Below, piece after piece: positions 819 through 16,605 of a stretch of DNA of 64,000 nucleotides; position 1 is the first letter of the stretch; each line of letters starts with the position of its first letter. The DNA is from Halorientalis persicus (GTDB taxonomy: Archaea > Halobacteriota > Halobacteria > Halobacteriales > Haloarculaceae), in contig NZ_FOCX01000007.1 of the NCBI RefSeq assembly GCF_900110215.1, forward strand, positions 1 through 64,000, read 5' to 3'. The translations under genes were made by a program, and so were the position numbers. The notes below the pieces were generated by a model. That model saw only the letters and a list, made by a program, of their open reading frames with translations, was not told where the DNA came from and made no database searches.

Positions 819-866
819 TCAGATCGAGCACCCGAGAAGGCGCTCACCCACCGGTGCGCCACAAAG
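819..866 (-). promoter_or_regulatory. Three-arm hairpin leader G (before SWIM copy 1)
   Basis: In gene sense, arm 1 (856-860) can pair with the middle arm (839-843), and the middle arm (839-845) can instead pair with arm 3 (826-832, one G-U). The pairings are mutually exclusive. A T-rich TTTGT precedes arm 1, as in most sister leaders, and a GGGTG loop lies between arms 1 and 2. Confidence 0.55.
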
Positions 867-887
867 AACGCACAGGACGACACCCGA

Positions 888-1037
888 TCAGGAAACCTCG
901 TAGCGAACGATGTCCGACCGGCCACAGGTCGGACACGCCTCGCCATCTGGATCTACGGTCGTCCCGCAGTGACGACACTCGTAAACCACCTGCGTGCTCG
1001 CCGTCCCCAGTAACGCCCGGTGGAAGAATCGCTTCAT
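888..1037 (-). CDS. 49-residue zinc-ribbon protein (cassette copy 1)
   Basis: A small gene translated as 49 residues starting MKRFFHRALLGTAS. Two CxxC-type knuckles (C21-x2-C24 and C35-x2-C38) form a zinc ribbon of rubredoxin-like spacing. Its ATG overlaps the TGA of the upstream TFB gene, which suggests translational coupling. A second copy with the same length and layout sits behind the second TFB gene (7546-7695), and this conservation is the main evidence that it is real. The function is unknown; a small partner of TFB or of the SWIM protein is possible. Confidence 0.8.
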   Translation of the reverse strand: MKRFFHRALLGTASTQVVYECRHCGTTVDPDGEACPTCGRSDIVRYEVS

Positions 1038-1972
1038 GCCGACACCCCCAGTCGGTCACGAACGAGTTCACGATTCGACCGCACCGTGGCCGGGCAGACA
1101 TCAGCAGCGTTCGCGAGGGTACGTTGTAGGACTGACTCGCCCTGCTCGGCCGCAGCCACTGCCAGACAGCCCGCCGCGAAGCCGGCTGGGTTTGACCCGC
1201 TGATCAGCCCTGCCGTCTGCGCTCGTTCGGCGAGGTCCCGCGCCAGTCGCCGCGTGTCCGCAGCTACCTCGACGGCCGAGGCCAGTTTCGGGACGAACGC
1301 GACCGGCTGCCGTGGTGGGACGGCCAGTTCCAGTTCTCGCTGCAGGACGCGGTAGGCATTCCGAACCCGACTGCGTTCGACCCGCCCCACCGCGACAACC
1401 TCGTCGAGCGTCCGGGTGTGGCCGTTGCATCGACAGGCCGCGTACACGCAGGCCGTCGCCATCGCCTCGATCGACCGCCCGGGGAGGAGCGACGCCTGCT
1501 GGGCCGTCCGGAAGAGTGTACTCGCCTGCTCTCGGAGACTCCGCTCCAGACCGAGCGCCGACACCATTCTCGCGATCTCCGTACAGCCGTGGCCGAGGTT
1601 CCGTTCCGCCTTGGAACGCCACTTTGCCCGACTGTGCTCGCGTCTGAGCCGGGAGAGTTGCCGTCGCTTCCGGTCGGGGAGGGAATTGCCGTTGGCGTCC
1701 TGGTCACCGCCGATCTCCGTCGACAGCCCCCGATCGTGCCGTACGTTCGTCAGCGGCGCGCCCGTCCGTTCCCGTTCTCGATCGTCCTCCGGGAAGGACC
1801 GCGGACCACGACGGTCGACCCGGGCGGCTTCGATTATCAGTCCGCACTGGTCACACCGTGTTTCGCCGGCCTCGGTGACGACCCGGCCATCGCATTCAGG
1901 ACAGTCGTTCGTCCGCACGCTCCCAGTCGTTTCTTCGTCGACACACGTTTGGTAGATGTCTCTCGTAGCCAT
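1034..1972 (-). CDS. tfb: Transcription initiation factor TFB paralogue (copy 1)
   Basis: A 312-residue TFIIB-like factor that would bridge TBP-bound promoters and RNA polymerase. After a 23-residue N-terminal extension there is a zinc ribbon (C24, C27, C40, C43). A B-finger/linker region with GLSTEIG follows, then two cyclin-like repeats ending in a helix-turn-helix (CPATVRSNRELVRDRL). Haloarchaea often carry several TFBs, and this one is encoded in mobile-looking DNA and is paralogous to 7692-8630. The start at 1972 lies just after a three-arm hairpin leader. The gene is coupled to the zinc-ribbon gene by an ATGA overlap. Confidence 0.92.
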   Translation of the reverse strand: MATRDIYQTCVDEETTGSVRTNDCPECDGRVVTEAGETRCDQCGLIIEAARVDRRGPRSFPEDDRERERTGAPLTNVRHDRGLSTEIGGDQDANGNSLPDRKRRQLSRLRREHSRAKWRSKAERNLGHGCTEIARMVSALGLERSLREQASTLFRTAQQASLLPGRSIEAMATACVYAACRCNGHTRTLDEVVAVGRVERSRVRNAYRVLQRELELAVPPRQPVAFVPKLASAVEVAADTRRLARDLAERAQTAGLISGSNPAGFAAGCLAVAAAEQGESVLQRTLANAADVCPATVRSNRELVRDRLGVSA

Positions 1973-2026
1973 CTCGAATCAGCGCGACCACTGCCTGTGG
2001 CCCCGCACCCCCCGGGGGCCACAACC
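1973..2026 (-). promoter_or_regulatory. Three-arm hairpin leader A (before TFB copy 1)
   Basis: Arm 1 (2015-2022) pairs perfectly with the middle arm (1997-2004). The middle arm (1997-2006) can instead pair with arm 3 (1982-1991) with one mismatch and one G-U. The segment between arm 3 and the ATG reads CTGATTCGAG in gene sense, as in leaders B, C and D. No convincing TATA box is seen upstream. Confidence 0.7.
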
Positions 2027-2166
2027 AAACACGGAGATGCGAGACACTCAGTTGTGTTTGGAGCGACTTTGGCACACACTGTGGGAGGGACGGATCGCCC
2101 CATGAGAATCGTCTAGCTTCAAAACAAATTTAATCCAGACATGAAGAGAGGAAATCAAGGTACGAG

Positions 2167-5100
2167 GTGCGGTCCAACGTGTTACCGCGACCGGAACTCC
2201 CATCTCTCTGGACGACAGCACAGGCACGCTCTTCGGACAAAAGCAAGCAATCCAGCACAGGAACAGGAGCAACTGACCAGCCACTTCCAGCAGTCCCCGA
2301 CGAGCCACAGACACGGCCGTATATCGAGATTCGGCCGACCGATACGCCACTTGATCCCGGGACTGTCGCACACGGCATCGATGTTCTCGTCACGGCGTTG
2401 CAGGAGGCGAGTCAGGATGGGCTCTGGCACACACTCATGGACTCCGTGCAACAACCCCATGTCGAATGGGTCCTCGTCAGTGACGGCCGCTCCGATGCAC
2501 AGATCCGGTATTTCGTCGGCACGGACGACAACGAGTTACTCCCGGACGTCAAACACGTTCTCCGAACGGCGCTCCCGAACTCCTACGAACTTCGGGAGGT
2601 GACCTGGCACCCACGCCAGATATACGAACAACTGCCGGTCGCAGCCACTCCGGAAGATTGCCATCCACATCCGGCGATCACGCCCGCTCGACCGTACGTT
2701 GCCGGCGTCGAGTATTGTGGTCACGCGAAGCGGAGATCTGACTGGCAGGCACCGTTGGCACCATTCGAGGAGATCATCGACAACAGCGAGGCTCCCCAAC
2801 ACCACCGCAACCAGAACCAGCGCGAATCCCGGCGCGTCCCGCTGGCAACTCTAATCGAAACGATGCGCGAGGCCAACGTCCCCGTAATCTATCAAGCGGT
2901 CTGTCGGTCCTACGACGACTGGACGGGCGACCGACGTTCCTACCTCCAGACGCTCCGGGACGACGAGGACTGGCTGATGGACCTCATCAGCCAACGGTCA
3001 CAGGAAGAGAAGCGGGCGTACCAGCCACCCCCCGAGGACCAGGCCCGTATCGACGCAATCAGGACCCGGGACCCAGCGCGGTCGCTGTTGCTCTCGGCAC
3101 GGGCAGTCGTCCTGACGCGAACCGATCCGCCCCTTGCCGACAGCATTGCGCGTGAACTGACCAGCGTCTTCGGCCACGTCGGGACACAGTTTCACGAGGT
3201 CCGCGGCCAGCTCCGGACGGATGACGACCTCCATCCCGCGAACCGCAAGCCACCGGGCGCACAGGTTTTCCACGATCTCGTCGATCGGACAGTTTACCCG
3301 GCGACGTACACCGGTCCCCGGACACGGCTACCGGGTGTCTCAACGACCAGCCGCGGGCTCGTCGTCTGCCCACCGGAACTGCCGAACTTCTGTCTCCTCG
3401 GGGGGCAGGGACTCACACCGGACGGCAAACGGGCCCTCGGGACCCGGGCCCGGGAACGGACTGGTGTGGCGTTGCCCCCACCGGACTTGTTGGCCCACTA
3501 CACGGGCCCGGGGATGTCGCTGTGTATGCCGCTGACCCACGACCGGGATCCATACGGGCAGCCACTCTCGCTCCCCCCAGCGGAGCAGGATCGACACATC
3601 GTCGTCGGCGGTCGTACGGGGGCCGGCAAGTCCATCCTCGTCGAGACGGCGATGCTCACGAACGTCGACGCCACCGCTGGGCTGGACATTCTCATCGACT
3701 CGAAGGGGGGTGGCACCGCCGAGGAGTACCTGCGAGCCCACTACGCCCAGCACGGTGACCTCGACGATGTGCTCTACTTCGACTGTACGGAGGTGTTGCC
3801 GGCGCTGTCGTTTTTCGATATCCGGGCGCTGCTGGACGCTGATGTCCCTCATTCCGAGGCTGCCGCTCGCGTGGCCGGCCAGTACGAGGAGATTCTCCGG
3901 GGGCTGATGGGAGCCGACCGGTACGACCGGGCCGTCGACGCGCCGAAGGTCATTCGCAACCACGTCAAGGCGCTGTTCGATCCCATCCACGGCGACGAGA
4001 CGTTCGGGCACGACGATCTCTATGCATCCTTGCGCCGAACGATGGAGATGGAGGCCCCGCCGACCGTCACCACCGACGGACTGGAGGAGTACTTCGACAA
4101 CTTGGTCGAGCGCGACCGTGAAGTCTTCCAGAAGGTTCTGGGTGGAGCCGTTGGTCGCGTCGACACGATCGCCACCGACGAGCGACTCGCGTCAGTGTTC
4201 AACCACACACCCGGCGAGGGTGACGCGGCGTTCGATTTCGGGGAGTTGCTCGACGAAGATCGCGTCGTCATCTTCGACTTCGGTGGCATGGAGGACCGAA
4301 TGAAGCGGACGCTGACGTTGGTCCTGCTCTCGAACCTCTGGACGGCGCTGAAAGCCCGTGCCGAGGCTGCCGACGCGGCTGCCGACCTCCCACTGGTCAA
4401 CCTCTATCTGGAGGAGGGAGCCGAAGTCGCGGAAACGGAAGTGATGGACACACTGCTGTCACAAGGCCGGTCGTTCGGGCTGTCGGTATTGTTGGGCGTG
4501 CAGTTCCCCGAGCAGTTGAAATCGTCCGATCCCACGACCGAAACCTATCTCGAAGCCCTCAATGAAGTGGCCACGACCGTCGTCGGCAACGTCTCGGTCA
4601 CCGACGACCTCGCTGGGGCACTGGCCACCGAGGACATGGATCCCGAGGCCGTCGCCCGTCGACTCAGTGCGCTCCAGCGCGGGGAGTGGTTCGTTCAGCC
4701 CGCCGCCCCGTTTGGCGAGCCACGGCCGCGGCCGTTCCTCGCGGAATCGCTGGCCCCACCGCCTGGCCACCCGGCCAGTGACCAGCCGTTGACCGCCAGC
4801 GAGGGCCAGGCCTTCGAGAACGCGTTCGAGTCCGCGTGTGACCGGACGCGTAAGACGGCTGGGTTGGCCCACATCGATGCTGGAGCGGTGCCAGCCCCGG
4901 ACACAGAGGAGGAGTCCACGGACCCAACGACCGACCCGAATGCAACAGCAGCAGAGCTCACCGATCCAGACATCCGGCGGGATTCGCTCCTCCCACACAC
5001 CCAGCGACGCCCCGACTGTATCGCGTACGACGCCGACGCCCACACCCTCCGGTGTACGTCCTGTGACAATCGCTACGATCCGACGGTCGACGGTATGCGT

Positions 5101-6003
5101 GATGCCATCGAGTGCTGTCACTCACTGGTCGATGTCGACCGTGATGACATCCCTGTCTGTGAGATCAATCTGAAACTCTCACCCGAGGAGATCGAGGCGT
5201 CGGAGTGGTCGGTGACGCAGTTGCTGTTCCTGCAGGCCGTCTACAACGCACAACAGCTTCGCTTCGACGTACTCGAATACGACATCGTCCGGGATAGCAT
5301 GGTCCGGTTGCGGGAGTACGTCGGCATCGAGTACGACGCTGTTCTGGAGTTGGTCGATGCAGGGATCCTGCGGGACCACGGGAAAGAGCCTCACAAGCTG
5401 TACTCGCTGGCTCCCGACGGTCGCGAAGTTATTGGTGAGAGCTACAGTCGCGGCGTCGAGTTCGGGCACGGGGCCGGCGATCTGGAGGAGTCAGCCCAGC
5501 ACGTCCTGTTGGTTGAGTTGCTCCGTCGGTATTTTGTCGACGAATTCGCGGAAGATTCTGCCTCGGCTGTCGAGCAGGTCGTCCCCTATTACGAACTGCA
5601 GGAGGGGGAGGCCCCAGCCGCATCGTTCATGGGTGATGGCGAAGACACGGCCGAGGTGGAATCGGTCGAACGGCGTCGGCTGGACGTGGCCGGCCTCGAT
5701 GCTGACGGGGAGGTTGTCGTCGTTGGTGAGGCCGAACGGTTGAACAACGACAGCCACGAAGCGATTCCGGCCGATTACGACAAGATGGCTGCCTGTGAGC
5801 CCGAGGAAGCGATCTGGGCGACGCTGACGCGAACGGACGCACACGAAGTGCTGGAGACGTTGAACGATCCCGCTGACGGGGAGCCGAGGGTCGAGAAAAC
5901 GTACAGCAAGAATACGCCGGCACGGGACATCAGAATCGACACGCCGGGAGCGACGGAGATCTACCCGATCAGCTATCTGCGACGGTTGCTTGGAGAGGAG
6001 TGA
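2167..6003 (+). CDS. HerA/VirB4-like ATPase with zinc ribbon and nuclease-like tail
   Basis: A 1278-residue multidomain ATPase. Walker A is GGRTGAGKS at 481-489. A Walker B-like strand, LVNLYLEEGA, lies near 743-752, and a second acidic strand (VVIFDFGGMED) precedes it. Residues 951-984 hold a zinc-binding set (C951, C963, C966, C983/C984), followed by a winged-helix-like stretch. Around 1173-1190, DVAGLDADGEVVVVGEAE resembles the core of a PD-(D/E)xK nuclease. Such ATPases pump or translocate DNA in conjugation-like systems. The GTG at 2167 is the first possible start after a stop at 2131. No relaxase or other transfer gene is visible nearby. Confidence 0.8.
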   Translation: MRSNVLPRPELPSLWTTAQARSSDKSKQSSTGTGATDQPLPAVPDEPQTRPYIEIRPTDTPLDPGTVAHGIDVLVTALQEASQDGLWHTLMDSVQQPHVEWVLVSDGRSDAQIRYFVGTDDNELLPDVKHVLRTALPNSYELREVTWHPRQIYEQLPVAATPEDCHPHPAITPARPYVAGVEYCGHAKRRSDWQAPLAPFEEIIDNSEAPQHHRNQNQRESRRVPLATLIETMREANVPVIYQAVCRSYDDWTGDRRSYLQTLRDDEDWLMDLISQRSQEEKRAYQPPPEDQARIDAIRTRDPARSLLLSARAVVLTRTDPPLADSIARELTSVFGHVGTQFHEVRGQLRTDDDLHPANRKPPGAQVFHDLVDRTVYPATYTGPRTRLPGVSTTSRGLVVCPPELPNFCLLGGQGLTPDGKRALGTRARERTGVALPPPDLLAHYTGPGMSLCMPLTHDRDPYGQPLSLPPAEQDRHIVVGGRTGAGKSILVETAMLTNVDATAGLDILIDSKGGGTAEEYLRAHYAQHGDLDDVLYFDCTEVLPALSFFDIRALLDADVPHSEAAARVAGQYEEILRGLMGADRYDRAVDAPKVIRNHVKALFDPIHGDETFGHDDLYASLRRTMEMEAPPTVTTDGLEEYFDNLVERDREVFQKVLGGAVGRVDTIATDERLASVFNHTPGEGDAAFDFGELLDEDRVVIFDFGGMEDRMKRTLTLVLLSNLWTALKARAEAADAAADLPLVNLYLEEGAEVAETEVMDTLLSQGRSFGLSVLLGVQFPEQLKSSDPTTETYLEALNEVATTVVGNVSVTDDLAGALATEDMDPEAVARRLSALQRGEWFVQPAAPFGEPRPRPFLAESLAPPPGHPASDQPLTASEGQAFENAFESACDRTRKTAGLAHIDAGAVPAPDTEEESTDPTTDPNATAAELTDPDIRRDSLLPHTQRRPDCIAYDADAHTLRCTSCDNRYDPTVDGMRDAIECCHSLVDVDRDDIPVCEINLKLSPEEIEASEWSVTQLLFLQAVYNAQQLRFDVLEYDIVRDSMVRLREYVGIEYDAVLELVDAGILRDHGKEPHKLYSLAPDGREVIGESYSRGVEFGHGAGDLEESAQHVLLVELLRRYFVDEFAEDSASAVEQVVPYYELQEGEAPAASFMGDGEDTAEVESVERRRLDVAGLDADGEVVVVGEAERLNNDSHEAIPADYDKMAACEPEEAIWATLTRTDAHEVLETLNDPADGEPRVEKTYSKNTPARDIRIDTPGATEIYPISYLRRLLGEE

Positions 6004-6056: not shown

Positions 6057-6446
6057 TTAGTTCCGCAGGTTGGTCACGGTCATCAGGTCGGTCAGATATT
6101 CAGTTTCGAAGTCTTCGTCAGCGACGACGAGTTCGGCACCGGTCGAGCGGGCAGTCGCGGCGATCAGGAGATCGCGGACGGACATCTCGTCCCCGCCGTG
6201 CCGGAGTTCGTTCTGGATGCGTGCGGCTTCCATCGCGACGGTTTCGCTCAGGTCGATAGAGCGGACACCACCGATAGACTGGCGGGCGACGTGAGCGGAG
6301 ATGTCGTCTCGCCACATCGCGCCGTTGACGAACTCGTAGATGCAGATAGTCGAGGTGAACCACGGTTCGTTATCATCGAGATACGACACGGCGTCACTCT
6401 CATCGCGCTTGTAGGCAAGAATAGCAGACGTGTCCAGAAACAGCAT
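6057..6446 (-). CDS. vapC: VapC-type PIN-domain toxin
   Basis: A 129-residue PIN-domain protein, expected to be a Mg-dependent endoribonuclease acting on RNA. The N-terminal FLDTSAIL gives the first catalytic Asp (D5), YEFVNG gives the Glu, and the C-terminal SVRDLLIAA plus VVADEDF supply the remaining acidic residues. It starts one base after the stop of the upstream antitoxin gene, the usual antitoxin-first order. Length and motif order are normal for VapC, with no sign of damage. Confidence 0.9.
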   Translation of the reverse strand: MLFLDTSAILAYKRDESDAVSYLDDNEPWFTSTICIYEFVNGAMWRDDISAHVARQSIGGVRSIDLSETVAMEAARIQNELRHGGDEMSVRDLLIAATARSTGAELVVADEDFETEYLTDLMTVTNLRN

Positions 6447-6447
6447 A

Positions 6448-6642
6448 TCAGAAGCTCTCCCGGCTCCGTTCTATGTTCCTCTCGATCTCGTCAAGAGCTT
6501 CGTCGGAGAGGTCGCCCTGTTGGATCGGTTCGTCCTCGCCAGCGATCCGCGTCAGGAACTCGTCCCACGTCTCGTTATCCTGCTTCAGGTTGTCGAGTCG
6601 CTCTTTCGTCGATTCGTCTACCGGGATCGAGGTTCGGCTCAT
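6448..6642 (-). CDS. vapB: VapB-type antitoxin
   Basis: A 64-residue protein beginning MSRTSIPVDESTKERLDNLK, with the short beta strand and two helices of a ribbon-helix-helix DNA-binding N-terminus and an acidic toxin-binding tail. It is expected to neutralise the PIN toxin encoded immediately downstream and to repress the pair. A 15-base dyad lies 4-18 bases before its ATG, inside the probable core promoter, and fits autoregulation. Confidence 0.85.
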   Translation of the reverse strand: MSRTSIPVDESTKERLDNLKQDNETWDEFLTRIAGEDEPIQQGDLSDEALDEIERNIERSRESF

Positions 6643-6645
6643 ACT

Positions 6646-6660
6646 AATTTATTCTAAATT
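6646..6660 (-). promoter_or_regulatory. Dyad and AT-rich core promoter of vapBC
   Basis: AATTTA-TTC-TAAATT is a perfect inverted repeat directly before the vapB ATG. Being AT-rich it may serve as both TATA region and operator. The very short distance implies a leaderless or nearly leaderless transcript. Confidence 0.5.
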
Positions 6661-7447: not shown

Positions 7448-7495
7448 CGAATCAGGGCACTCACGAGAGCGCCCGCCCATCGGGGCGCGCTACAA
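7448..7495 (-). promoter_or_regulatory. Three-arm hairpin leader F (before SWIM copy 2)
   Basis: Arm 1 (7483-7488) pairs with the middle arm (7469-7474). The middle arm (7467-7474) can instead pair with arm 3 (7455-7462, one G-U). The sequence just before the ATG is CTGATTCG, matching leaders A-E. Confidence 0.6.
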
Positions 7496-7545
7496 CCCCA
7501 CGAGTGGCGACCAGATCTTCCACGAGAAGCACGCCCCTGACCGGG

Positions 7546-7695
7546 TCAGGGGATCTCGTAGCGGGCGATCTCCGACGACCCACACTGCGGACACGGCTCA
7601 GCGTCGCCGTCGACTGGCGTCCCGCACCGACAACACTCGAAGACGACTGTCCGCCCCGCTGTACCGAGCAGAACGCGCGACCAGAACCGCCTCAT
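7546..7695 (-). CDS. 49-residue zinc-ribbon protein (cassette copy 2)
   Basis: A 49-residue gene (MRRFWSRVLLGTAGR...), collinear with copy 1 at 888-1037. The zinc knuckles are again at C21/C24 and C35/C38, and the C-terminus ARYEIP matches VRYEVS of copy 1. Its ATG overlaps the stop of the TFB gene (ATGA). Conserved length, position and cysteines in two diverged cassettes argue for selection on the protein. Confidence 0.8.
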   Translation of the reverse strand: MRRFWSRVLLGTAGRTVVFECCRCGTPVDGDAEPCPQCGSSEIARYEIP

Positions 7696-8630
7696 GCCAT
7701 CTCCACTAACCGACCACGAATCTCATCACGGTGCCCCCGGACCGTCGCTGGACAGACGTTGGCCGCCTGGGCCAGATCGGCCTGTTGTACGTTGATCCCG
7801 CGTTGGCCTGCAACGACGGCCAGACAGCCCGCCGCGAACCCAGCCGGATGACAGCCCGACGCCAGGCCACGCTCCTGGGCCCGTTCGGCGAGGTCGGTCG
7901 CAGCACACCGCGTTTCCGGTGGAATATCCAGTGCAGAGGCCAGCTTCGGGACAAACTCCGCCGGCTTCTGTGGAGGTATCTGTAACCCAAGTTCGCGCTG
8001 CAGGACCAGATACGCGTTCCGTACGCGCGATTGGCCAACGCGAGAAACAGCCACGACCTCCTCGATCGTCCGGGTCTGGCGTGCGCACCGACAGGCTGCG
8101 TACACACAGGCCGTTGCCACCGACTCGATGGCCCGCCCGGGGAGCAACCCCGCATCCTGTGCCGTTCGGAACAGCGTCGACGCCTGCTCGCGGATACTCC
8201 GGTCCAGGCCCAGCGCCGCGACCATGCGGGCGATTTCCGTACAACCATGCCCCAGATTCCGCTCGGCTTTCGACTGCCACTTCCCGCGGCGATGCTCACG
8301 TCGTAACCGCGCCAGTCGTCGTCGTTTCCGCGCTGAGAATGTGTTGCCCTGGGTGTCGCGACCACTGCCAATCTCCGTCGAGAGTCCCCGATCGTGGCGC
8401 GCGTTCGTCAGCGGCGCGCCCGTCCGTTCCCGTTCTCGACCGTCTTCCGAGAAGGACCGCGGACCACGACGGTCAACCCGGGCGGCTTCGATGATCAGTC
8501 CGCACTGCCCACAGCGGGTTTCGCCGGCCTCGGTGACGACTCGGCCATCGCATTCAGGACAGTCGGTCGTCGGGACGCTCCCAGTCGTTTCCTCGTCGAC
8601 ACTCGTTCGATAGATGTCTCTCGTCGCCAT
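7692..8630 (-). CDS. tfb: Transcription initiation factor TFB paralogue (copy 2)
   Basis: A 312-residue TFB collinear with 1034-1972 along its whole length. It has the zinc ribbon (C24, C27, C40, C43), linker motif GLSTEIG, two cyclin folds and a C-terminal helix-turn-helix (CPATVRGHRDEIRGRL). The N-terminal domain is almost identical to copy 1, while the second half differs more, especially in the repeat that contacts upstream promoter DNA. This could give the two factors different promoter preference (inference). It is coupled to the zinc-ribbon gene. Confidence 0.92.
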   Translation of the reverse strand: MATRDIYRTSVDEETTGSVPTTDCPECDGRVVTEAGETRCGQCGLIIEAARVDRRGPRSFSEDGRERERTGAPLTNARHDRGLSTEIGSGRDTQGNTFSARKRRRLARLRREHRRGKWQSKAERNLGHGCTEIARMVAALGLDRSIREQASTLFRTAQDAGLLPGRAIESVATACVYAACRCARQTRTIEEVVAVSRVGQSRVRNAYLVLQRELGLQIPPQKPAEFVPKLASALDIPPETRCAATDLAERAQERGLASGCHPAGFAAGCLAVVAGQRGINVQQADLAQAANVCPATVRGHRDEIRGRLVEMA

Positions 8631-8690
8631 CTCGAATCAGCGCGGCCACTGCCTGTGGCCCCGCACCCATCGGGGGGCCACAAACCACAC
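8631..8690 (-). promoter_or_regulatory. Three-arm hairpin leader B (before TFB copy 2)
   Basis: Arm 1 (8674-8681) pairs perfectly with the middle arm (8655-8662). The alternative is the middle arm (8655-8664) with arm 3 (8640-8649), 9 of 10 pairs. Compared with leader A, arm 3 differs by one base that turns a G-U into a G-C pair, so pairing is kept. Confidence 0.7.
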
Positions 8691-9593: not shown

Positions 9594-10181
9594 TCACGAG
9601 ACTGATTCATTCTCGTCCTCTGAATCGGTCAACAATTCGGTCAACCTGTCTCGGTTAGTATCGATCCCATGCTGGTCGACGATATCGAGCGCGGCGAGAA
9701 CCGCGCCATCGTTCGTGATTCCATCCGCTGTGAGTTTCCGGAGCCGTGTGACTGCGGCCGCTTCGTCTGTGGCACACCGATGGAGGTCGGGCACGAGCTC
9801 AAGCGCCAATTGCTTCCAGTCAGTGGCCGTGCCAGTGAGTTCGAGCGACCAATCGTCAATGGCCCCGTCACGTTGGTAGCCGTCCATCGCGTGGTCGGCG
9901 AGGAGATCGTCGACGAGTATGGACTTACAGACGGTTGGTCCACCACCCCTGAACGTGGGATCGATTACCGTCTCGAATGCGTCAGCCGACCGGATCTCAC
10001 GTTCGATGTGCAGGGAAACCCCATCGTGTTCTGCAAGGATACTCGCTGGCTCGTCGGCACTCACCTGCCGGGTGAACGTCGCAGGCCCGGACGCGACGAC
10101 TGTCAACTCCGCCACCGATGGGTCTGGTTCTGTCTGTACGTCTGTCCTCTGGGTCGGTGTGTCGGGTACATCCGAACTCAT
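9594..10181 (-). CDS. 195-residue protein of unknown function
   Basis: An acidic protein with no motif I can assign. The N-terminal 30 residues are Thr/Pro/Asp-rich and probably disordered. A mixed alpha/beta region follows (SVAELTVVASGPATFTRQV; SLHIEREIRSADAFETVIDP), and the C-terminal third is helical and may be a small bundle. It has one of the eight three-arm leaders, which links it to the TFB, SWIM and ArdC-like genes. The ATG at 10181 is the only reasonable start after the leader. Confidence 0.65.
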   Translation of the reverse strand: MSSDVPDTPTQRTDVQTEPDPSVAELTVVASGPATFTRQVSADEPASILAEHDGVSLHIEREIRSADAFETVIDPTFRGGGPTVCKSILVDDLLADHAMDGYQRDGAIDDWSLELTGTATDWKQLALELVPDLHRCATDEAAAVTRLRKLTADGITNDGAVLAALDIVDQHGIDTNRDRLTELLTDSEDENESVS

Positions 10182-10232
10182 CGTTTCGTGAAGGGGCTGC
10201 TCCCTCCACCCTTGGAGGGGGACAAAAACACA
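10182..10232 (-). promoter_or_regulatory. Three-arm hairpin leader H (before 195-residue gene)
   Basis: Arm 1 (10214-10219) pairs with the middle arm (10202-10207). The middle arm (10202-10209) can instead pair with arm 3 (10188-10195, one G-U). It shares TTTTTGT before arm 1 and a GGGTG loop, although the arm sequences are unrelated to the other leaders. Confidence 0.55.
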
Positions 10233-10805: not shown

Positions 10806-10838
10806 ACTCTTATCAGGAAGGGGTAGGAAACGAGGGAT

Positions 10839-11321: not shown

Positions 11322-12263
11322 CTACATGGTGTCGCCTTCCTTCAGCTGGTCGTCGACTGCGTCGATGACCGTCGTCGCGGTCGTACTGATCCGCTGAAGC
11401 CTGTCAGTGATCGTGTCCGTCTGGTCGTCAGCCCACACCGCCAGATAGAACGCCGCATTGCTCGTGTCGAGGCAGAAGTACCGCCCGACGACGTACGCCA
11501 CCGCTTCGGCTTCGACCTCGCGTTTCGCCCGTTCGCTGTCGTCGGCCACCTGAAAGTGCAACAGCGCATGGGCATACTCGTGGATCAGTGTCGTCACGAG
11601 GTCTGCCTCGTTATCTCTATTCTTGGCTTTCACAATCGGTTGCTCGTCCCGTCCCGACTGACTACAGACACCTTTTGCACCAGAGTAGGTCCATTCGGAC
11701 TGAGCAACAATACGGACCTCGACATCGAGAGCGGATGCCGCCTCCTGTAGTGCGTCGACCAACTCGCTCCCGTCGCCGTACGTCTGAGTGTCGAGTTCCG
11801 GGAGCGGCTCGCCTTCGGTCTGAGAGACATCGAACACCGGCGCGGGTTTGAACCCGACCAGGCCCTCGTCCCAGTCCTCTGGTGGTGTCTCGTCGTACTC
11901 ACAGTCCGACTCCTCGTGATACGACGGCGCGTTCTCACATTCGGGACACCGGGTCGTGATGATCGGTGCCCAGATCCAGATCGCCGACTCGCCCTCTGAG
12001 ACGTGCCTGTCGAACTCTTCTTGCCACGTCCGGTAGCCCGCGACCTTCGTCGCCTCCGGACACTGCTGTTTGATCAGGAGCGTATTCCGATGCGAATACT
12101 CGTGGAACCGACTCTGGACATCCAGCCACTCCTGAAACTCCGCGCTGGCTTGTGCCTCGTCGACGAGGTCGGTGAGGGTCTCGACCCACTCGTCGATGGT
12201 CGCTCGCATCTGTTCGTCGCGCGTCTCCCGGTCGTCGAATGTCGTGGTATCACTAGTCGCCAT
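11322..12263 (-). CDS. ArdC-like antirestriction protein with metallopeptidase domain
   Basis: A 313-residue protein. The N-terminal half (DEQMRATIDEW...FHEYSHRNTLLIKQQCPEATKVAGYRTW) matches the ArdC N-terminal ssDNA-binding domain. The C-terminal half holds a zinc-peptidase signature H228-E-Y-A-H232, with a downstream acidic EVEAEAVAYVVG segment that could give the third ligand. Two Cys pairs (about C105/C108) add a possible zinc site. ArdC proteins are carried by conjugative plasmids and protect incoming DNA from host restriction. It has leader C upstream, and a broken copy of its N-terminus lies at 14820-14946. Confidence 0.85.
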   Translation of the reverse strand: MATSDTTTFDDRETRDEQMRATIDEWVETLTDLVDEAQASAEFQEWLDVQSRFHEYSHRNTLLIKQQCPEATKVAGYRTWQEEFDRHVSEGESAIWIWAPIITTRCPECENAPSYHEESDCEYDETPPEDWDEGLVGFKPAPVFDVSQTEGEPLPELDTQTYGDGSELVDALQEAASALDVEVRIVAQSEWTYSGAKGVCSQSGRDEQPIVKAKNRDNEADLVTTLIHEYAHALLHFQVADDSERAKREVEAEAVAYVVGRYFCLDTSNAAFYLAVWADDQTDTITDRLQRISTTATTVIDAVDDQLKEGDTM

Positions 12264-12320
12264 CTCGAATCAGCGCGACCACTGCGTGTGGCCCCGCACC
12301 CCTCACGGGGCCACAAAACA
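12264..12320 (-). promoter_or_regulatory. Three-arm hairpin leader C (before ArdC-like gene)
   Basis: Arm 1 (12307-12314) pairs perfectly with the middle arm (12288-12295). Alternatively the middle arm (12288-12297) pairs with arm 3 (12273-12282), with one mismatch and one G-U. It is nearly identical to leader D. Confidence 0.7.
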
Positions 12321-12338
12321 ATTCACTTCAGAGACGGG

Positions 12339-12479
12339 CTACGGGAGCAGGTTATCTGGCAGATAGTCGCGACAATCAATCGGTATTGCCTCCCACGCCG
12401 CTTGGATCGCCTGAAAGCCAGTCCATCCTTCACCCCGGAGTAGTTCACCACACGCCAGACAGAACTCCTCTTCCGTGAA
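12339..12479 (-). pseudogene. C-terminal fragment of a PIN-like gene split by the TnpB element
   Basis: Reading leftwards from the element edge, the frame gives FTEEEFCLACGELLRGEGW..., ending in a stop at 12339-12341: 46 codons of protein-like sequence with no start codon. On the other side of the element, the PIN-like gene 13925-14422 runs into the insert in the same orientation. The simplest reading is that the two are halves of one gene. This explains why the upstream half ends in residues encoded by the element. Confidence 0.65.
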
Positions 12480-12491
12480 CGCACCCCGAGG

Positions 12492-13730
12492 TCAAGCCCC
12501 GGGGCTTCCTGCTTCTACGACGCGCTTTGCACTCACTTCCTCTCGGTGAGGCGTGAGCGTAGGGAGCGCAGTCTGCACAGGCGTTGATTCGGAGCGTCCC
12601 GCCCCTAACTGCTTGAGTCCTCTGTAGAGAATATTCTTCGCTGCGTTGAGGTCGCGGTCTTCCGTATGGCCGCACGCTGGACAGGAGTGTTCGCGTACCC
12701 AGATTGGCTTGGCTGTTTCCACACCACACACAGCGCACTCTTTGGTCGTTCCTTGTGGTTTCACCTTCTCGACGTGCGTGCCATGGAGGTCAGCCTTGTA
12801 TTCCAACAGGTCAAGAAAGCGTGACCACGCAGCGTCTTGCTTGTTCTTGGCGTTGTGGCTGGTTTCCAGCATCGGCTTCACATCCAAGTCCTCCACTGCG
12901 ACGACATCGTACTCTGTGACTAGCCACGTCGTGAGTTTGTGCTGGTAGTCTCGCACCTTCCGCTTGATTGCTCGTTTCGCTTTGGCTACCTTTCGTCGTT
13001 GCTTCTCCCAGTTGGCAGAGCCGTGTTCTTTCCGGTCGAGTTTCCGCTGTTCGCGTGCGTAGCAGTCGTACTCGTCGGACAGGTCAAGCGTATCCACAGA
13101 CAGGTTCTCCGAAGTGTGGATGTAGCTGGTGATTCCAAGGTCAACACCTACGCAGTCTTCGGGTTCAATTTCACTGAGTGGCGGTTTCTCGGGTGTATAT
13201 TCTACAGTGGTCACGAGTGAGACGTACCACTCACCAGTCGTCTCTTTTTTCAGGATAACCTCGTCAATGTCCTCTGCTGGTGGTACGTCGCGGTCTGCAC
13301 GGATGTTGAACCAGCCAATCTTTTCGAGTCGGAGTCGGACGAATCGGTCGTCGCCCGTGTTGTAATCCACGTTGAAGCGACTTAACTGATTGTACGACAC
13401 TGACCGAAATTTACCGTTGCCTTGCCACTGCAACCGCCCAACATCGTAGCCTTCGTTTCGACGTTCTTGCAGCGTCTCTAGGTCGCTGTGAATCTGGCTG
13501 ATAGCCTGTTGTGCAGCGTGTTGTGACGGTTCGGCAAAGGTCGGCCACTGGTCTGTCCAATCTTTGAGTTTGCTGTGTTGGTCGTAGTCGGATGGCCTGT
13601 CGTTGTAGTCCGAGTTGTAGTAGTCCCGGACAGCGTGATTGCGAATCTGCCGGAGAATGTCGATGTGCCGCCACGCTTCGCTTGCCACATCGTCGGACAG
13701 GTACGCGCGGAAGCGAAGCGTGTGTTTCAT
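12492..13730 (-). CDS. tnpB: RNA-guided endonuclease TnpB
   Basis: A full-length 412-residue TnpB. The RuvC catalytic residues are all present: D197 (VGVDLGI), E280 (VAVEDLD) and D360 (DRDLNAAKNI). The zinc-ribbon cysteines are C332, C335, C350 and C353. The C-terminus (GAGRSESTPVQTALP, VSAKRVVEAGSPGA) is the usual haloarchaeal tail whose DNA doubles as the 3' end of the element and its guide RNA. Family knowledge: TnpB cuts DNA matching the sequence flanking the element, which helps retain it. A small AbrB-like gene ends five bases upstream, so the two may be co-transcribed. Confidence 0.93.
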   Translation of the reverse strand: MKHTLRFRAYLSDDVASEAWRHIDILRQIRNHAVRDYYNSDYNDRPSDYDQHSKLKDWTDQWPTFAEPSQHAAQQAISQIHSDLETLQERRNEGYDVGRLQWQGNGKFRSVSYNQLSRFNVDYNTGDDRFVRLRLEKIGWFNIRADRDVPPAEDIDEVILKKETTGEWYVSLVTTVEYTPEKPPLSEIEPEDCVGVDLGITSYIHTSENLSVDTLDLSDEYDCYAREQRKLDRKEHGSANWEKQRRKVAKAKRAIKRKVRDYQHKLTTWLVTEYDVVAVEDLDVKPMLETSHNAKNKQDAAWSRFLDLLEYKADLHGTHVEKVKPQGTTKECAVCGVETAKPIWVREHSCPACGHTEDRDLNAAKNILYRGLKQLGAGRSESTPVQTALPTLTPHREEVSAKRVVEAGSPGA

Positions 13731-13735
13731 TGTGG

Positions 13736-13864
13736 TTAGTCGAGTTTTTCGACGGTGAGTTTCAACTGGTCGCCTTCTTCCAGATTGAGTCCCTCACGGA
13801 CTTCTTCTGGGATTGTGACTTGCCCGCGTTCTCTGAGGTTCGGGTAGCACTTCATCGAACTCAT
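13736..13864 (-). CDS. 42-residue AbrB/SpoVT-like protein upstream of tnpB
   Basis: The frame reads MSSMKCYPNLRERGQVTIPE..., continuing VREGLNLEEGDQLKLTVEKLD. This is a complete AbrB/MazE swapped-hairpin half-barrel, with the hallmark RGQVTIPEEVRE and GDQLKL segments. Its stop lies five bases before the tnpB ATG. An AT-rich region (13865-13890) upstream could be its promoter. It may repress the operon or act as an antitoxin-like partner of TnpB; neither is shown by sequence alone. Confidence 0.75.
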   Translation of the reverse strand: MSSMKCYPNLRERGQVTIPEEVREGLNLEEGDQLKLTVEKLD

Positions 13865-13924
13865 TGTTATTTATTCATACTTAATCGTAATAACGGTTGG
13901 GTGTTGTCGGCTTCAACCCCGGGG

Positions 13925-14422
13925 TCAAGCCCCGGGGCAGTCGCCTTGACCGCCTGTACACGCCCCGTGTTCCAACAGCAGGTAGAGTAAGAACGGCGGT
14001 GCAACGGCTTTCCCATCCTCGCTCTGCGAATCGAAGACACGGTTAATCGCCATCCGTCCGTGCTTATCCATCAATATTGCATACGTGTACGTCTCCGGGT
14101 GTTGCTCAACCTCACGCTGTATCGATGTCTCGCCAGCATCCTCGCCATGTGGGCGTGGCACACATGGAACGACGGTGAATGCCTCGGATTCGCCCGTGAA
14201 TGGTTCGAGCGCCGCCTTGCTGCCATCGTGGATCCATCGCTCTCGTGTTCCGTCCGGAGCATGGGCGGATTTCTCCCGTGTATGGCGCTGCAGTTCCTGT
14301 TGACAGACGTTCGTCGTCGTGAGGTGTAGCGTCTCGATGATGTGTGACCAGAGGTCGGTATTTGCAACCGCGATCAGGGCGTCACTATCGACGATGACAG
14401 GATGGCGAGTGTCATCTGTCAT
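13925..14422 (-). pseudogene. PIN-like gene, N-terminal part, truncated by TnpB element
   Basis: The frame codes for about 160 residues beginning MTDDTRHPVIVDSDALIAVA, with the PIN-type first Asp pair (VDSDALI). Later segments are a haloarchaeal PIN-like body (ETYTYAILMDKHGRM; APPFLLYLLLEHG). The last codons and stop fall in the element (from about 13940), so the natural C-terminus is lost; it is probably the fragment at 12339-12479. The gene begins three bases after a putative antitoxin gene. The toxin is likely inactive or altered. Confidence 0.7.
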
Positions 14423-14425
14423 CCG

Positions 14426-14734
14426 TCACTGCTGGAACACACCATCTGTGTCGAGGGTAGCTGCCTCCTCGAAAGCATCGCGTTCACGCTCAATTTCTTC
14501 AAGTGCATCTCCTATAAGAACGATAGCGACTTCCTCCGAGAGGTCACCGCGTCTGTACTGCTCATACAGTTTGATTTTCTCTTCATCAGAGAGTGTTTCT
14601 CGGAGTTTCTCTTTGAGCCCTTCTCGCGCGAGTTCGCTGATATTGATCCCACCGAGACGCATCTGGTCGACAACCTGACTCGCCTCTTTTTCAGTTGCTC
14701 CCCTGAACTGAATTTTGTCGTTCTCCATCGCCAT
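14426..14734 (-). CDS. Putative antitoxin partner of the split PIN gene
   Basis: The protein, about 102 residues from MAMENDKIQFRG, is mostly helical and highly charged, with an N-terminal beta strand (KIQFRG) and a repressor-like start (SELAREGLKEKLRETLSDEEK). I do not recognise a named family. Its position, immediately upstream of a PIN-domain gene and ending four bases before it, is that of an antitoxin. An upstream ATG at 14788 would add 18 residues that look less protein-like. A 10-base palindrome (14788-14797) lies further upstream. Confidence 0.65.
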   Translation of the reverse strand: MAMENDKIQFRGATEKEASQVVDQMRLGGINISELAREGLKEKLRETLSDEEKIKLYEQYRRGDLSEEVAIVLIGDALEEIERERDAFEEAATLDTDGVFQQ

Positions 14735-14819
14735 CGGTACGTCCCCATAGTCAGCGTGCGGATTTAGGCGTTGTGACAAGCCATCCATGTCATGACAACA
14801 CCCTCCATCTCAGCATCGA

Positions 14820-14946
14820 TCGCGCCGCACTGGCCTGTGCCTCGTCGACGAGATCGGTGAGGTCTGCAACCCACTCGTCGATGGTTGCTCGCATCTGTTC
14901 GTCACGCGTCTCACGGTCGTCGAATGTCGTACTATCACTCGCCCAT
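14820..14946 (-). pseudogene. Remnant of an ArdC-like gene (N-terminus only)
   Basis: The sequence encodes the first 39 or so residues of the ArdC-like protein at 11322-12263 (TTFDDRETRDEQMRATIDEW then LTDLVDEAQASA). A small indel right after the ATG shifts the frame (ATGGGCGAGTGA), and similarity stops abruptly near 14820. The full hairpin leader (copy D) is still attached. This is a duplicate broken by a later event, perhaps arrival of the antitoxin/PIN pair. Confidence 0.75.
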
Positions 14947-15003
14947 CTCGAATCAACGCGACCACTGCGTGTGGCCCCGCACCCCTCACAGGGCCACAAA
15001 AAT
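14947..15003 (-). promoter_or_regulatory. Three-arm hairpin leader D (before ArdC remnant)
   Basis: Nearly identical to leader C. Arm 1 (14990-14997) has one mismatch with the middle arm (14971-14978); arm 3 is 14956-14965. The slight decay fits its pseudogene context. Confidence 0.6.
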
Positions 15004-15085
15004 CGATCTCGCCAGCGACCGCTACACACAACGACAGAGCGTACCGAACGTTCGAGGCAGGAGAAATGGAGACGATATCGGGGAG

Positions 15086-15493
15086 TCAGTTCCAGACGAC
15101 AGGAACACCTTGTTCGTCGATGTCAGTGTCGGTCGTGATGACGGCCTCAGTCTCGCGGGTTCGGTAACTGGCGACGATCATCGCATCATGAAGCGAAAAC
15201 GTTCCTCGTGAGCCAGCGACGTATTGCAGATCGTCGACTGTCGTCTCAACGACCGAGACCGGAAGGAAACTTCGGAGTCCAGCGACGATGTCGTCCGGTG
15301 CGCCGGGAAGTTCAACACCCTTCGCTGGATGGCCCTTCTGGACCCGATAGAGTGTTTCGGCAGCCGCTATTGCGGGGAGTTCGATGACAATCTCGCTCTG
15401 TTCTGCGAGTGCGTAAAGCCGATCCGCCTCACTCCCGAGCTCGTCCACGAGATAGCGAATGAAACCGACCGCGTCAGTGGTATAGCGTTTCAT
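15086..15493 (-). CDS. vapC: PIN-domain toxin of an AbrB/PIN pair
   Basis: A 135-residue PIN-fold protein: MKRYTTDAVGFIRYL carries the first Asp, AIAAAETLYRV the Glu, and FSLHDAMIVASYRT plus VITTDTDI the last acidic residues. It is expected to be an RNase toxin. Its ATG overlaps the antitoxin stop by four bases (ATGA), so translation is coupled. It is a different lineage from the two classical vapBC pairs in this window. Confidence 0.85.
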   Translation of the reverse strand: MKRYTTDAVGFIRYLVDELGSEADRLYALAEQSEIVIELPAIAAAETLYRVQKGHPAKGVELPGAPDDIVAGLRSFLPVSVVETTVDDLQYVAGSRGTFSLHDAMIVASYRTRETEAVITTDTDIDEQGVPVVWN

Positions 15494-15744
15494 ACGTCCC
15501 AGTCTGACCGTTGCTTCTCGCGGACATCTTCGGTCATCGCCTGTGCTAGCTCTTCCCGATCGGATTCATCCAGACCTTCGACCAACATACCGCGGCCCGA
15601 ATCGTTGTCGGCGCGGACGAGACGAAGTCCGTCGTCAGTGTCGATCCAGATTACCTCATCACCGGGATTGATGCCGTATTTTTCGCGATACTCCTTGGGA
15701 ATCGTCGTCTGACCTTTGTCCGTGACCTGCGTCGTCTCTGTCAT
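15490..15744 (-). CDS. AbrB/MazE-type antitoxin
   Basis: An 84-residue protein. The N-terminal swapped-hairpin domain reads TTQVTDKGQTTIPKEYREKY followed by GINPGDEVIWI, and the acidic C-terminus should bind the PIN toxin. I start at the ATG at 15744 (MTETTQV) because the longer frame would run through a perfect operator-like dyad at 15761-15779. Likely represses its own operon. Confidence 0.85.
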   Translation of the reverse strand: MTETTQVTDKGQTTIPKEYREKYGINPGDEVIWIDTDDGLRLVRADNDSGRGMLVEGLDESDREELAQAMTEDVREKQRSDWDV

Positions 15745-15760
15745 ACTTGCTGGTACGTGT

Positions 15761-15779
15761 GTAAGAACTAAATTCTTAC
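15761..15779 (-). promoter_or_regulatory. Operator-like dyad of the AbrB/PIN pair
   Basis: GTAAGAA-CTAAA-TTCTTAC is a perfect 7+7 inverted repeat, 17 bases before the antitoxin ATG. Its AT-rich centre overlaps the probable core promoter. Confidence 0.6.
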
Positions 15780-15900
15780 CGAGCACTGCCGATCGCCGGA
15801 CAGACGACAAGTTATCTTCTGCTCTCATGATACAGCAGAACACCATGTCGACGAGGCCACCATTCAGCACCCTGCCCGACGATGGTCGGTTGCATTTGCT

Positions 15901-16551
15901 CTACGGACGACTGGGCATCGTCCGCCGATCGGCCGTCCGAATGAGGAGGTCAGCCCTATCCGGAACCAATTCACTAAGCTTCCGCTGCAGATACTGCTGT
16001 GCCTCGTCAGGCGTGAAGACGCCACGGTCGACCATGTCACCGACGATGTCTTTCAGCGCCCGGAACTCGCCCTGGGCAGCGCCGTCACCGACTGGCTTAC
16101 CGTCAACCCATCGCACCGTCCGGATTGCACCGTTTCCAACTGTGGGTGCATCGGTGACCGTCTCACAGTCGTACGTCAGCCCTAACCAGTGCGTCCTGTA
16201 GGCCATCACCTCGAAATCCTGGGCAACCACGAACAACGCCTCGTGGTGGAGAAAGTCCAGGTACTCGGTGACAATCTCGTCTTTCGTGAGTCCGATGGCC
16301 ATCGGGTCGTGGTTGACCTCGGAGGCCAGGAGGTTCGCCTCACGAACGTACTGTGAGATTGCCTGCTCGTCGGTGCTTGTTCTGAGCGTCCGGCAGAGCA
16401 ACTGATGGGTTTCTGCTGGACGGTCACCGCCGAAGGGTGTCTCGGGTGTGATATCGTGTTTCAGCCTGAGGTTGCAGGCCCCCCAGTGCGAATAGTGCAA
16501 GTTGTACGATCCATCCGGTCGGTCGTATGCGACGAGTGCACGATGTCCCAT
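15901..16551 (-). CDS. DUF6735-like haloarchaeal protein (island copy)
   Basis: A 216-residue protein starting MGHRALVAYDRPDGSYNLHY. This N-terminal strand pattern (RALVAYxRxDxxYxLHYxHWG) is shared with the chromosomal gene at 48761-49327, so the two are paralogues; I believe the family is DUF6735, function unknown. The C-terminal third is helical (RALKDIVGDMVDRGVFTPDEAQQYLQ). The ATG at 16551 is preferred because the longer frame to 16602 would run through leader E and the paralogue starts at the same place. Confidence 0.75.
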   Translation of the reverse strand: MGHRALVAYDRPDGSYNLHYSHWGACNLRLKHDITPETPFGGDRPAETHQLLCRTLRTSTDEQAISQYVREANLLASEVNHDPMAIGLTKDEIVTEYLDFLHHEALFVVAQDFEVMAYRTHWLGLTYDCETVTDAPTVGNGAIRTVRWVDGKPVGDGAAQGEFRALKDIVGDMVDRGVFTPDEAQQYLQRKLSELVPDRADLLIRTADRRTMPSRP

Positions 16552-16605
16552 CGAATCACGCGGGACGGGTGATCGCCCCGCACCCCTTCGGGGGCGATAC
16601 ACATA
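16552..16605 (-). promoter_or_regulatory. Three-arm hairpin leader E (before DUF6735-like gene)
   Basis: Arm 1 (16591-16598) pairs perfectly with the middle arm (16572-16579). The middle arm can instead pair with arm 3 (16560-16567, one G-U). The outer half of the stem reads ATCG/CGAT where leaders A-C have GTGG/CCAC, so both strands changed together. The sequence before the ATG is again TGATTCG. Confidence 0.7.

Follow-up and report, generated by a model that had tools for sequence, protein, structure and literature searches.

Translational regulons in which a protein-bound hairpin precedes many genes are exemplified by T4 RegA and the MS2 coat operator, and we know of no such phage-type regulon that is built from alternative three-arm hairpins with free arms. 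Here we describe a haloarchaeal leader of about 55 nt which, like these regulons, places a short hairpin or sequence motif close to the start codons of mobile-element genes, and in which a central arm (arm 2) can pair either with the arm upstream of it (arm 1, forming hairpin 1) or with the arm downstream of it (arm 3, forming hairpin 2). The leader stands before eight genes in positions 1-64,000 of contig NZ_FOCX01000007.1 of Halorientalis persicus (Haloarculaceae; assembly GCF_900110215.1), the whole of which is hereafter called the window. Its two mutually exclusive helices share arm 2 and both of them covary.

Other described systems resemble the leader in part. EGeRS1, a conserved region of 400-600 bp with multiple inverted repeats, belongs to the establishment operons of Bacillus conjugative plasmids of the pLS20 family (PMC8708921). 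The two are alike in that a conserved region rich in inverted repeats precedes several separate plasmid operons (ardC included) with a variable gene set, by a mechanism that the published account leaves unexplained. They are unlike in that EGeRS1 is bacterial and has many repeats, whereas the haloarchaeal leader (about 55 nt) has one competing helix pair, a common loop and a near-fixed distance to the AUG, and shows neither a conserved stretch of 400-600 bp nor multiple inverted repeats. Alternative folds of a 5' leader, one of them covering the ribosome-loading region, are likewise described for translational riboswitches (fluoride in Thermococcus, synthetic theophylline in Haloferax volcanii), and a synthetic switch that hides both the Shine-Dalgarno sequence and the AUG functions in Hfx. 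volcanii; in the account given there, the fluoride riboswitch was, as of 2021, the sole natural archaeal riboswitch shown experimentally (PMC8241225). In contrast to these, the present leader has no aptamer-sized domain, and no single metabolic pathway was seen among its downstream genes. The S15 leader of Halobacteria, also a structured leader in haloarchaeal mRNA, is described as belonging to ribosomal protein genes and as mimicking rRNA (PMC7247131), whereas here the genes are of plasmid type, with no ribosomal protein genes among the named families of the scanned downstream proteins. Finally, the single-stranded DNA promoters of F and ColIb-P9 (mentioned in PMC8708921), which, in contrast to the action in RNA proposed for our leader, act as promoters in DNA, resemble it in placing inverted repeats before plasmid anti-restriction genes.

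An earlier sequence-only reading of the window knew of no described haloarchaeal element of this kind. In line with this, Rfam 15 (4227 families) gave no match at gathering score in the window and eight other loci (128,608 bases), and a full-text literature search, with most subscription papers outside its scope, returned no description of the element. Control by mutually exclusive hairpins is familiar in itself, while to our knowledge no three-arm leader with free arms that is common to tens of unrelated archaeal plasmid genes has been described.

Architecture of the three-arm leader

The sequence-only reading had proposed that the eight leaders follow one layout (arm 1, loop, arm 2, spacer, arm 3) with arm 2 shared. 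All eight are present at the positions proposed, on the minus strand, and all eight carry this layout when scored by a scan that ignores sequence, requiring an arm 1:arm 2 and an arm 2:arm 3 helix and an arm 3 that ends 6-16 nt before the start. With 200 dinucleotide shuffles per gene start as the null, the leaders score 31-44, and 0, 0, 0, 0, 1, 1, 2 and 5 of the 200 shuffles reach the score. At none of 17 further gene starts examined in the window did the scan find a three-arm configuration, though 8-57 of the 200 shuffles of each gave some (two of these 17 control starts were set off the start codon, and the SWIM2 start was off by one base).

The wider family was collected with two covariance models. 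R1 (hairpin 1, 18 sequences) gave 224 matches in 60 fetched regions and the window, which were reduced to 220 used, 219 anchored, 118 non-redundant, 99 clean (cleaning demanded GGTG, GGCG or AGTG at the anchor) and finally 89 usable leaders. R2, which is broader, was built from an alignment (A4) of 61 of these 89 leaders, hand-picked to align ungapped and therefore leaning to well-behaved members; it gave 275 matches in the 60 regions, of which 250 were used together with the eight window leaders (227 usable, 102 non-redundant).

Across the 89 leaders (positions counted from the T of the loop), conservation is confined to about -23 to +7 and to arm 3, nothing being conserved from -60 to -24 (at most 0.2 bit). 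The conserved part consists of one loop of 7-11 nt, about GAnGGGUG (A at -5 in 87%, GGG at -3 to -1 in 98-100%, T in 96% and G in 100%), and of a U-run that adjoins arm 1 (-20 to -17, 78-88% T). Arm 2 has a GGGG core; after it come a spacer that varies among leaders and then arm 3. The median distance from the loop T to the start codon downstream is 35 nt, and the centre of arm 3 lies 13.5 nt upstream of the AUG (interquartile range -14.7 to -12.5). The arms are nearly free, also between neighbouring genes, which bears out the earlier statement that their sequences differ strongly while pairing is kept: arms such as GGGCC/GGCCCG/CGGGCC, CGCCGGC/GCCGGCG/GCGCCGGC and CCGGGC/GCCCGG/CCGGGT exist alongside the CCCC/GGGG type.

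Three further interpretations of the leader were considered and rejected. The loop could act as a Shine-Dalgarno mimic, as GGGGUG can pair with the anti-Shine-Dalgarno sequence, but by our own reading of the pairings position -3 is G in 99% where the Shine-Dalgarno sequence has A. Short GTG frames that cross the TFB and ArdC leaders (seen by eye) could encode a leader peptide, but spacer lengths and frames vary among members. An inner mini-hairpin (arm 1 with the G-run of the loop) is feasible in the CCCC type and not in CGCCGGC/GCCGGCG, and is hence not general.

Covariation of the two helices

The compensatory change cited from the window (GTGG/CCAC to ATCG/CGAT) is genuine. The eight leaders are not independent cases: TFB1/TFB2 and ArdC/remnant are paralogous pairs of near-identical sequence, and because these make up four of the eight, covariation could not be proven from the window alone. 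In the 89 leaders we compared, without alignment, the duplex energies of true partners with those of swapped partners (permutation z). Both helices pass: arm 1:arm 2 has -14.16 for true and -12.28 for swapped partners (z -8.6), and arm 2:arm 3 has -14.08 and -10.79 (z -13.4), with 0 of 2000 permutations in either case. Four controls are flat (arm 1 x downstream +0.8, loop x downstream +1.6, arm 2 x upstream +0.5, arm 2 x coding +0.1), and the outer flanks of arm 1 x arm 2 alone give a weak signal (z -3.1, 7/5000). The signal of the two helices (given in the same order) is found when each protein cluster contributes a single leader (n=22; over three draws z ranges from -5.1 to -6.7 and from -6.7 to -7.3, the control from -0.7 to -1.2), with the DUF6735 leaders removed (n=82: -7.9 and -13.2), in the R2 set (n=102: -12.5 and -16.1, control -1.2) and in leaders outside the R1 matches (n=13: -5.6 and -5.7; minus the one window leader in that set, n=12: -5.4 and -5.4, control -0.5).

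Hairpin 1 is also seen to covary by alignment. In the 61 ungapped leaders, two-sided changes occur in all seven pairs, covariation is 0.243 (0.124 shuffled, 0/500), 75.6% of cells pair (68.3% shuffled), and slid registers score lower on both paired-cell share and covariation. A mutual-information scan ranks five core pairs of the hairpin 5th, 7th, 24th, 78th and 85th of 1836, as the best diagonal. With arm 3 anchored at the AUG, the same kind of scan gave no clear arm 3 diagonal (best mean pairing 0.51, mean value after average product correction (APC) near zero), in our opinion because the register of arm 3 drifts by a few nt. Covariation of arm 3 is therefore claimed from the comparisons made without alignment.

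Distribution among genomes, plasmids and gene families

Building the covariance models and searching widely revealed that the shared element extends far beyond the window. At E <= 0.1 (a loose per-genome threshold) R1 matches 255 of 392 genomes of the order, and in about 77 of these (counted by eye) even the best match does not improve on 1e-4. Some half to two thirds of the sampled haloarchaeal genomes have the leader, the share varying with the threshold. In 27 genomes, selected mainly for many matches or spread, there are 6 to 19 matches per genome. Of 196 genomes sampled across the phylum, 29 match at E <= 0.01; 24 belong to the same order, and the five outside it have only 1-2 matches apiece, all of them weak (best 6.5e-5). 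Among viral contigs, nine stretches have the pattern and six model matches were obtained (best E 1.7e-5), while blastn with the TFB leader returned a single plasmid from haloarchaea, four records from bacteria (E 0.4) and none from phages.

The elements are often clustered on one strand. The genome of the window has 17 matches with E below 1e-3, and 15 of these fall on two contigs (nine on C41 at 46.6-58.7 kb, six on C60), all on the minus strand; some clusters are on plasmid-sized contigs, others inside chromosome-sized ones. The 258 elements used keep to a single strand within each of 61 sources (the window and regions L120-L179) despite interspersed genes on the opposite strand; among 25 left-out rows, one (L166:16532, plus strand) is opposite to the rest of its locus. 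In annotated plasmids, where opposite-strand genes are again interspersed, 36 of 40 rows (E <= 0.5) are on one strand; of the other four, two (L181:11501 and L184:16500) lie away from gene starts, and the remaining two overlap matches on the plus strand. A strong element (E 4e-12) was also observed in the Halobacterium salinarum R1 plasmid PHS3 (L188:28245-28284) with no listed gene below it in an incomplete gene table, and is perhaps a remnant.

Three annotated plasmids (pJ7-I, covered whole; pCBA1232-02, 100 of 103 kb; pSTJ002, 150 of 158 kb) are all typed MPF_T, two of them carry a gene annotated VirB4, and their matches lie mostly between conjugation-like genes and orc1/cdc6. On pJ7-I, the plasmid of the laboratory strain Natrinema sp. 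J7-2, eight elements of the plus strand reach E <= 0.01. The sequence-blind scan, applied to their 294 gene starts, marks 26 of 94 plus-strand and 1 of 50 minus-strand genes in three element-rich stretches; for the three stretches that remain, the figures are 11 of 101 (plus) and 1 of 49 (minus). Scores of at least 24 were reached by 34 real vs 11 shuffled (plus) and 5 vs 4 (minus) in the element-rich stretches, and by 14 vs 10 and 2 vs 1.5 in the others. Of the 26 marked genes in the element-rich stretches, 12 are R2 matches and 14 lie outside them: either the three-arm layout reaches beyond the common loop, or some of the marked leaders are due to chance. Leaders whose loop is GGAGGCGTG instead of GAnGGGTG occur at L181:9399-9458, L184:13611-13670 and L185:35323-35382, and are possibly a sub-type of the element with a different partner. 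Another type of leader hairpin (CCGCGATG...CATCGCGG), unmarked by the scan, precedes a gene start in two plasmids (L181:11740-11816, L184:16850-16921); the gene that follows it has, in the pJ7-I copy, a weak OB-fold (Ssb-like) match.

Downstream of the leaders, 211 proteins form 33 clusters, 18 of them with at least two members (at least one of these 18 being a misread frame). The named families are DUF6166, DUF6735, TFIIB, ArdC-like, SWIM, DUF6610, DUF7389 and an HNH-repeat endonuclease, and many clusters are unnamed; our best reading, judged from these sequences, is that the putative switch precedes at least 15 plasmid gene families. DUF6735 homologues of other genomes are also preceded by the leader: all eight named ones that were fetched (49-89% identical; from Halorientalis, Halosimplex, Halorarius and Halorussus) have a three-arm leader, with 0-5 of 200 shuffles reaching the score. 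DUF6735 itself was considered as a candidate regulator (its AlphaFold model is poor, pLDDT 65), and a PADLOC scan of ten downstream proteins gave two weak matches only.

A putative RNA switch acting on translation

We consider it likely that the three-arm leader is an RNA switch acting on translation, whichever of its states is ON. In the mechanism that we propose, the leader would be a short cis-acting switch in the 5' or intercistronic region of the mRNA. Pairing of arm 2 with arm 1 would form hairpin 1 and expose the purine-rich loop behind the U-run; pairing with arm 3 would form hairpin 2, the 3' side of which would lie about 13 nt before the AUG, at the ribosome-loading stretch, and would lower translation (OFF), while hairpin 1 would free the start region (ON) and present the loop. 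Hairpin 2 is the likely OFF state because of its closeness to the start codon (in the window leaders it ends 6-13 nt upstream). Since the loop is nearly fixed and the arms are free in the model-found family, a single trans-acting factor (protein or RNA, encoded by plasmid or host) could recognise the loop and so tune the balance between the two folds in many plasmid genes at once.

In part, the elements appear to lie within transcripts. In 36 of 190 neighbouring element pairs (from related replicons, hence non-independent) the first gene, which has an element of its own, ends at most 100 nt before the next element, and in 16 of the 36 its stop codon is just 1-2 nt ahead of the next U-run. This spacing fits read-through transcripts, and at least the second elements of these 16 pairs are probably transcribed through.

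Several observations weigh against a translational switch read by one factor. By prediction, four of the eight window leaders are almost wholly in hairpin 1 (TFB1, TFB2, ArdC and the remnant, with a gap of 5-11 kcal/mol), while hairpin 2 is favoured in SWIM2 (near-pure), DUF6735 and the 195-residue gene (g195), and SWIM1 is mixed; either flipping the leaders heavy in hairpin 1 would call for a large input, or the predictions miss the effects of molar salt. The AUG itself is outside hairpin 2, there is no Shine-Dalgarno consensus in the 89 leaders, and no partner of the loop was found. The fixity of the loop stems in part from how members were collected (by model, with anchoring on GGTG-like words), and GGGTG occurs in only 3 of the 14 marked leaders outside R2 matches (7 of 14 if GGGCG or GGTGG is allowed). 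In the 61-leader alignment, two of five measures for hairpin 1 are less telling: there are 36 two-sided cells (38 and 40 in two slid versions), and the number of pair types is reached in 36 of 500 shuffles. The outer four pairs of the hairpin are unpaired in 16-39 of the leaders. The mismatches of arm 1:arm 2 (G-U in 45 cells, A-C in 28, other in 160), counted at a fixed register and with no swapped control, tell us little. Promoters were not located: of 98 stretches upstream, 1 contains a TATA-like word, as does 1 of 294 coding controls. AT-rich 8-mers, however, (7 or 8 of 8) are commoner upstream, in 41 of 100 stretches as against 9 of 100 coding controls.

Nested within the switch is the same RNA fold in the opposite sense, in which a factor bound to the hairpin 1 loop and the U-run would repress translation and hairpin 2 would be the escape state. 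The mean hairpin energies are alike (-14.7 kcal/mol for hairpin 1, -14.2 for hairpin 2, standard deviation of the difference 4.9) and leave the direction unset, the U-run adjoins arm 1, and an Sm-like protein is described as binding AU-rich haloarchaeal mRNAs and proposed as a repressor of mobile-element transcripts (PMC10134880). Against this, it is hairpin 2 and not hairpin 1 that sits near the AUG at an almost constant distance, as an inhibitory state would, and we regard the opposite sense as rather unlikely.

It is improbable, in our judgement, that there is no switch and that a static hairpin (1 or 2 only) has acquired its third arm as a by-product of repeated G/C-rich words. Such sequence pairs readily (the 11 shuffled against 34 real plus-strand genes at score 24 give a measure of this) and several leaders are lopsided in energy; yet both helices covary where arm 1 x arm 3 and three other controls do not, and this holds with one sequence per protein cluster.

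As to the common control suggested in the sequence-only reading (an RNA switch or attenuator, or repeated protein sites), the shared element before unrelated genes is real and the RNA switch is the favoured option, whereas protein sites in DNA and a terminator-type attenuator are both disfavoured. The attenuator lacks the U-run that would follow arm 3 (T is not enriched from arm 3 to the AUG). An operator or promoter in double-stranded DNA, made up of a dyad and a repeat and bound by a regulator or an alternative TFB with no role for RNA, would fit the presence of the element before TFB genes, the rarity of TATA-like boxes upstream (1/98) and a T-run that might itself serve as a weak TATA box. 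The arms, however, covary and differ between neighbouring genes on one replicon, so that a single DNA-binding protein could hardly read them, and nothing is conserved at -60 to -24 of the loop T. Moreover, in the best Watson-Crick register of arm 2:arm 3, G-U takes up 72 and A-C 7 of the 123 remaining cells (swapped means 38.5 and 7.35 of 97.6), and six to seven of seven Watson-Crick pairs form in 49% of leaders (15% swapped); a preference of this kind for G-U among the mismatches would be expected in RNA but not in a DNA dyad. Arm 2, which is GC-rich, furthermore occupies -32 to -26 from the AUG, and in leaderless haloarchaeal genes the TATA box is reported 25-29 nt before the AUG (PMC3986360); with G-rich sequence where that box would sit, the arrangement is not that of a leaderless promoter with an operator. 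On these grounds we hold an operator in DNA to be quite improbable.

Very improbable is the view that the hairpins act in single-stranded DNA at plasmid entry, like the leading-region promoters of plasmid F: the single strand within each source (one left-out row apart), kept in the window although intervening genes run opposite, the ArdC-like genes and the MPF_T plasmids with their VirB4-annotated genes would suit it, but the leader has no visible promoter-like duplex, is far shorter than F-type promoters and has a G-U bias that better suits RNA. For pLS20, the rule that the transferred strand is the template strand has been applied (PMC8708921).

Leaders and neighbouring genes of the Halorientalis persicus window

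The proteins downstream of the eight leaders are SWIM zinc fingers, TFIIB paralogues, ArdC-like and DUF6735 proteins and one without a family (Table 1). The covariance models match six of the eight leaders, several of which are seed members; SWIM1 is unmatched and SWIM2 weak because their arms diverge, and both still pair in three-arm fashion. Two details of the earlier description hold in part: CTGATTCG, said to precede the ATG in most leaders, is exact in four (TFB1, SWIM2, TFB2, ArdC), one base off in the remnant and DUF6735 leaders and absent from SWIM1 and g195, and the TTTGT at the front of the leader is followed only loosely (GTGTAT in DUF6735, TTGT in SWIM2).

Table 1. Three-arm leaders of the window, with their arms, downstream open reading frames (ORFs) and the matches and shuffle counts on which they rest
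Leader	Position	Strand	Arms and loop	Downstream ORF	Basis
SWIM1	819..867	-	arm 1 854-860, loop CGGTGGGT, arm 2 839-845, arm 3 826-832	SWIM, 393-818	Three-arm score 32, 1/200 shuffles; unmatched by covariance models; SWIM domain E 6e-8
TFB1	1973..2028	-	arm 1 2015-2020, arm 2 1999-2004, arm 3 1986-1991	TFIIB-like, 1034-1972	R1 E 6.4e-10 (R1 seed member), R2 E 6.6e-9, 5/200 shuffles; TFIIB E 2e-26
SWIM2	7448..7498	-	arm 1 7483-7490, loop CGATGGGC, arm 2 7467-7474, arm 3 7455-7462	SWIM; start 7447, alternatively 7480 in frame	R2 E 0.37, three-arm score 38, 0/200 shuffles; SWIM E 1.5e-8
TFB2	8631..8686	-	arm 1 8674-8681, loop CCGATGGGTGC, arm 2 8655-8662, arm 3 8640-8647	TFIIB-like, 7692-8630	R1 E 5.4e-10 (R1 seed member), R2 E 5e-12, 0/200 shuffles; TFIIB E 8e-31
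g195	10182..10230	-	arm 1 10214-10221, loop AAGGGT, arm 2 10200-10207, arm 3 10188-10195	195 residues, 9594-10181; no Pfam family matched	R1 E 0.0041, R2 E 1.7e-7 (R2 seed member), 0/200 shuffles
ArdC-like	12264..12318	-	arm 1 12307-12312, loop GTGAGGGGTGC, arm 2 12290-12295, arm 3 12277-12282	11322-12263	R1 E 1.4e-12, R2 E 1.5e-13 (seed member of both), 1/200 shuffles; ArdcN E 1.3e-4
ArdC-like remnant	14947..15003	-	arm 1 14990-14995, arm 2 14973-14978, arm 3 14960-14965		R1 E 2.1e-11 (R1 seed member), R2 E 2e-12, 2/200 shuffles; paralogue of the 12264 leader
DUF6735	16552..16605	-	arm 1 16591-16598, loop CGAAGGGGTGC, arm 2 16572-16579, arm 3 16560-16567	End 15901	R1 E 5e-10, R2 E 5e-11 (seed member of both), 0/200 shuffles; DUF6735 E 4e-94

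Positions 890-1972 and 7548-8630 (minus strand) are paralogous cassettes of a TFIIB-like gene, a small ORF that looks zinc-ribbon-like by eye and a SWIM gene, and in each cassette both the TFB and the SWIM gene own a separate leader. At 11322-15003, the ArdC-like gene and its frame-broken remnant, each with a leader, flank an ORF (12492-13730) which we take to be TnpB-like. Another DUF6735 match, partial, lies at 48926-49282 (plus strand, E 1.9e-19), and two small genes at 6057-6647 (minus strand) are presumably a PIN toxin and its antitoxin.

Implications

The ArdC-like genes, the neighbours of type IV secretion system (T4SS) type and the uniformity of strand suggest a possible role of the leaders at the entry of the plasmid into a new host, comparable to the case of the EGeRS1 leaders of pLS20 plasmids (PMC8708921). 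Going further, the leaders might constitute an archaeal plasmid-wide post-transcriptional system, in which dozens of unrelated genes (probably serving new-host entry: ArdC-like, TFB, SWIM, homing nuclease) would each have their own three-arm switch and would be turned on or off jointly, with no common promoter, by one factor acting through the common loop. This is a tentative proposal, which we lean somewhat against, and a little more so because half of the three-arm leaders marked by the scan in the element-rich stretches are without the common loop word.

If true, it would mean that archaea have a post-transcriptional regulon carried by mobile elements and tied to genes such as ArdC, which are active in the establishment of bacterial plasmids. 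It would open to experiment the questions of what controls the ribosomes of haloarchaea where Shine-Dalgarno pairing is lacking and of how their plasmids time their genes, and the leaders may provide natural switch parts for haloarchaeal genetics.

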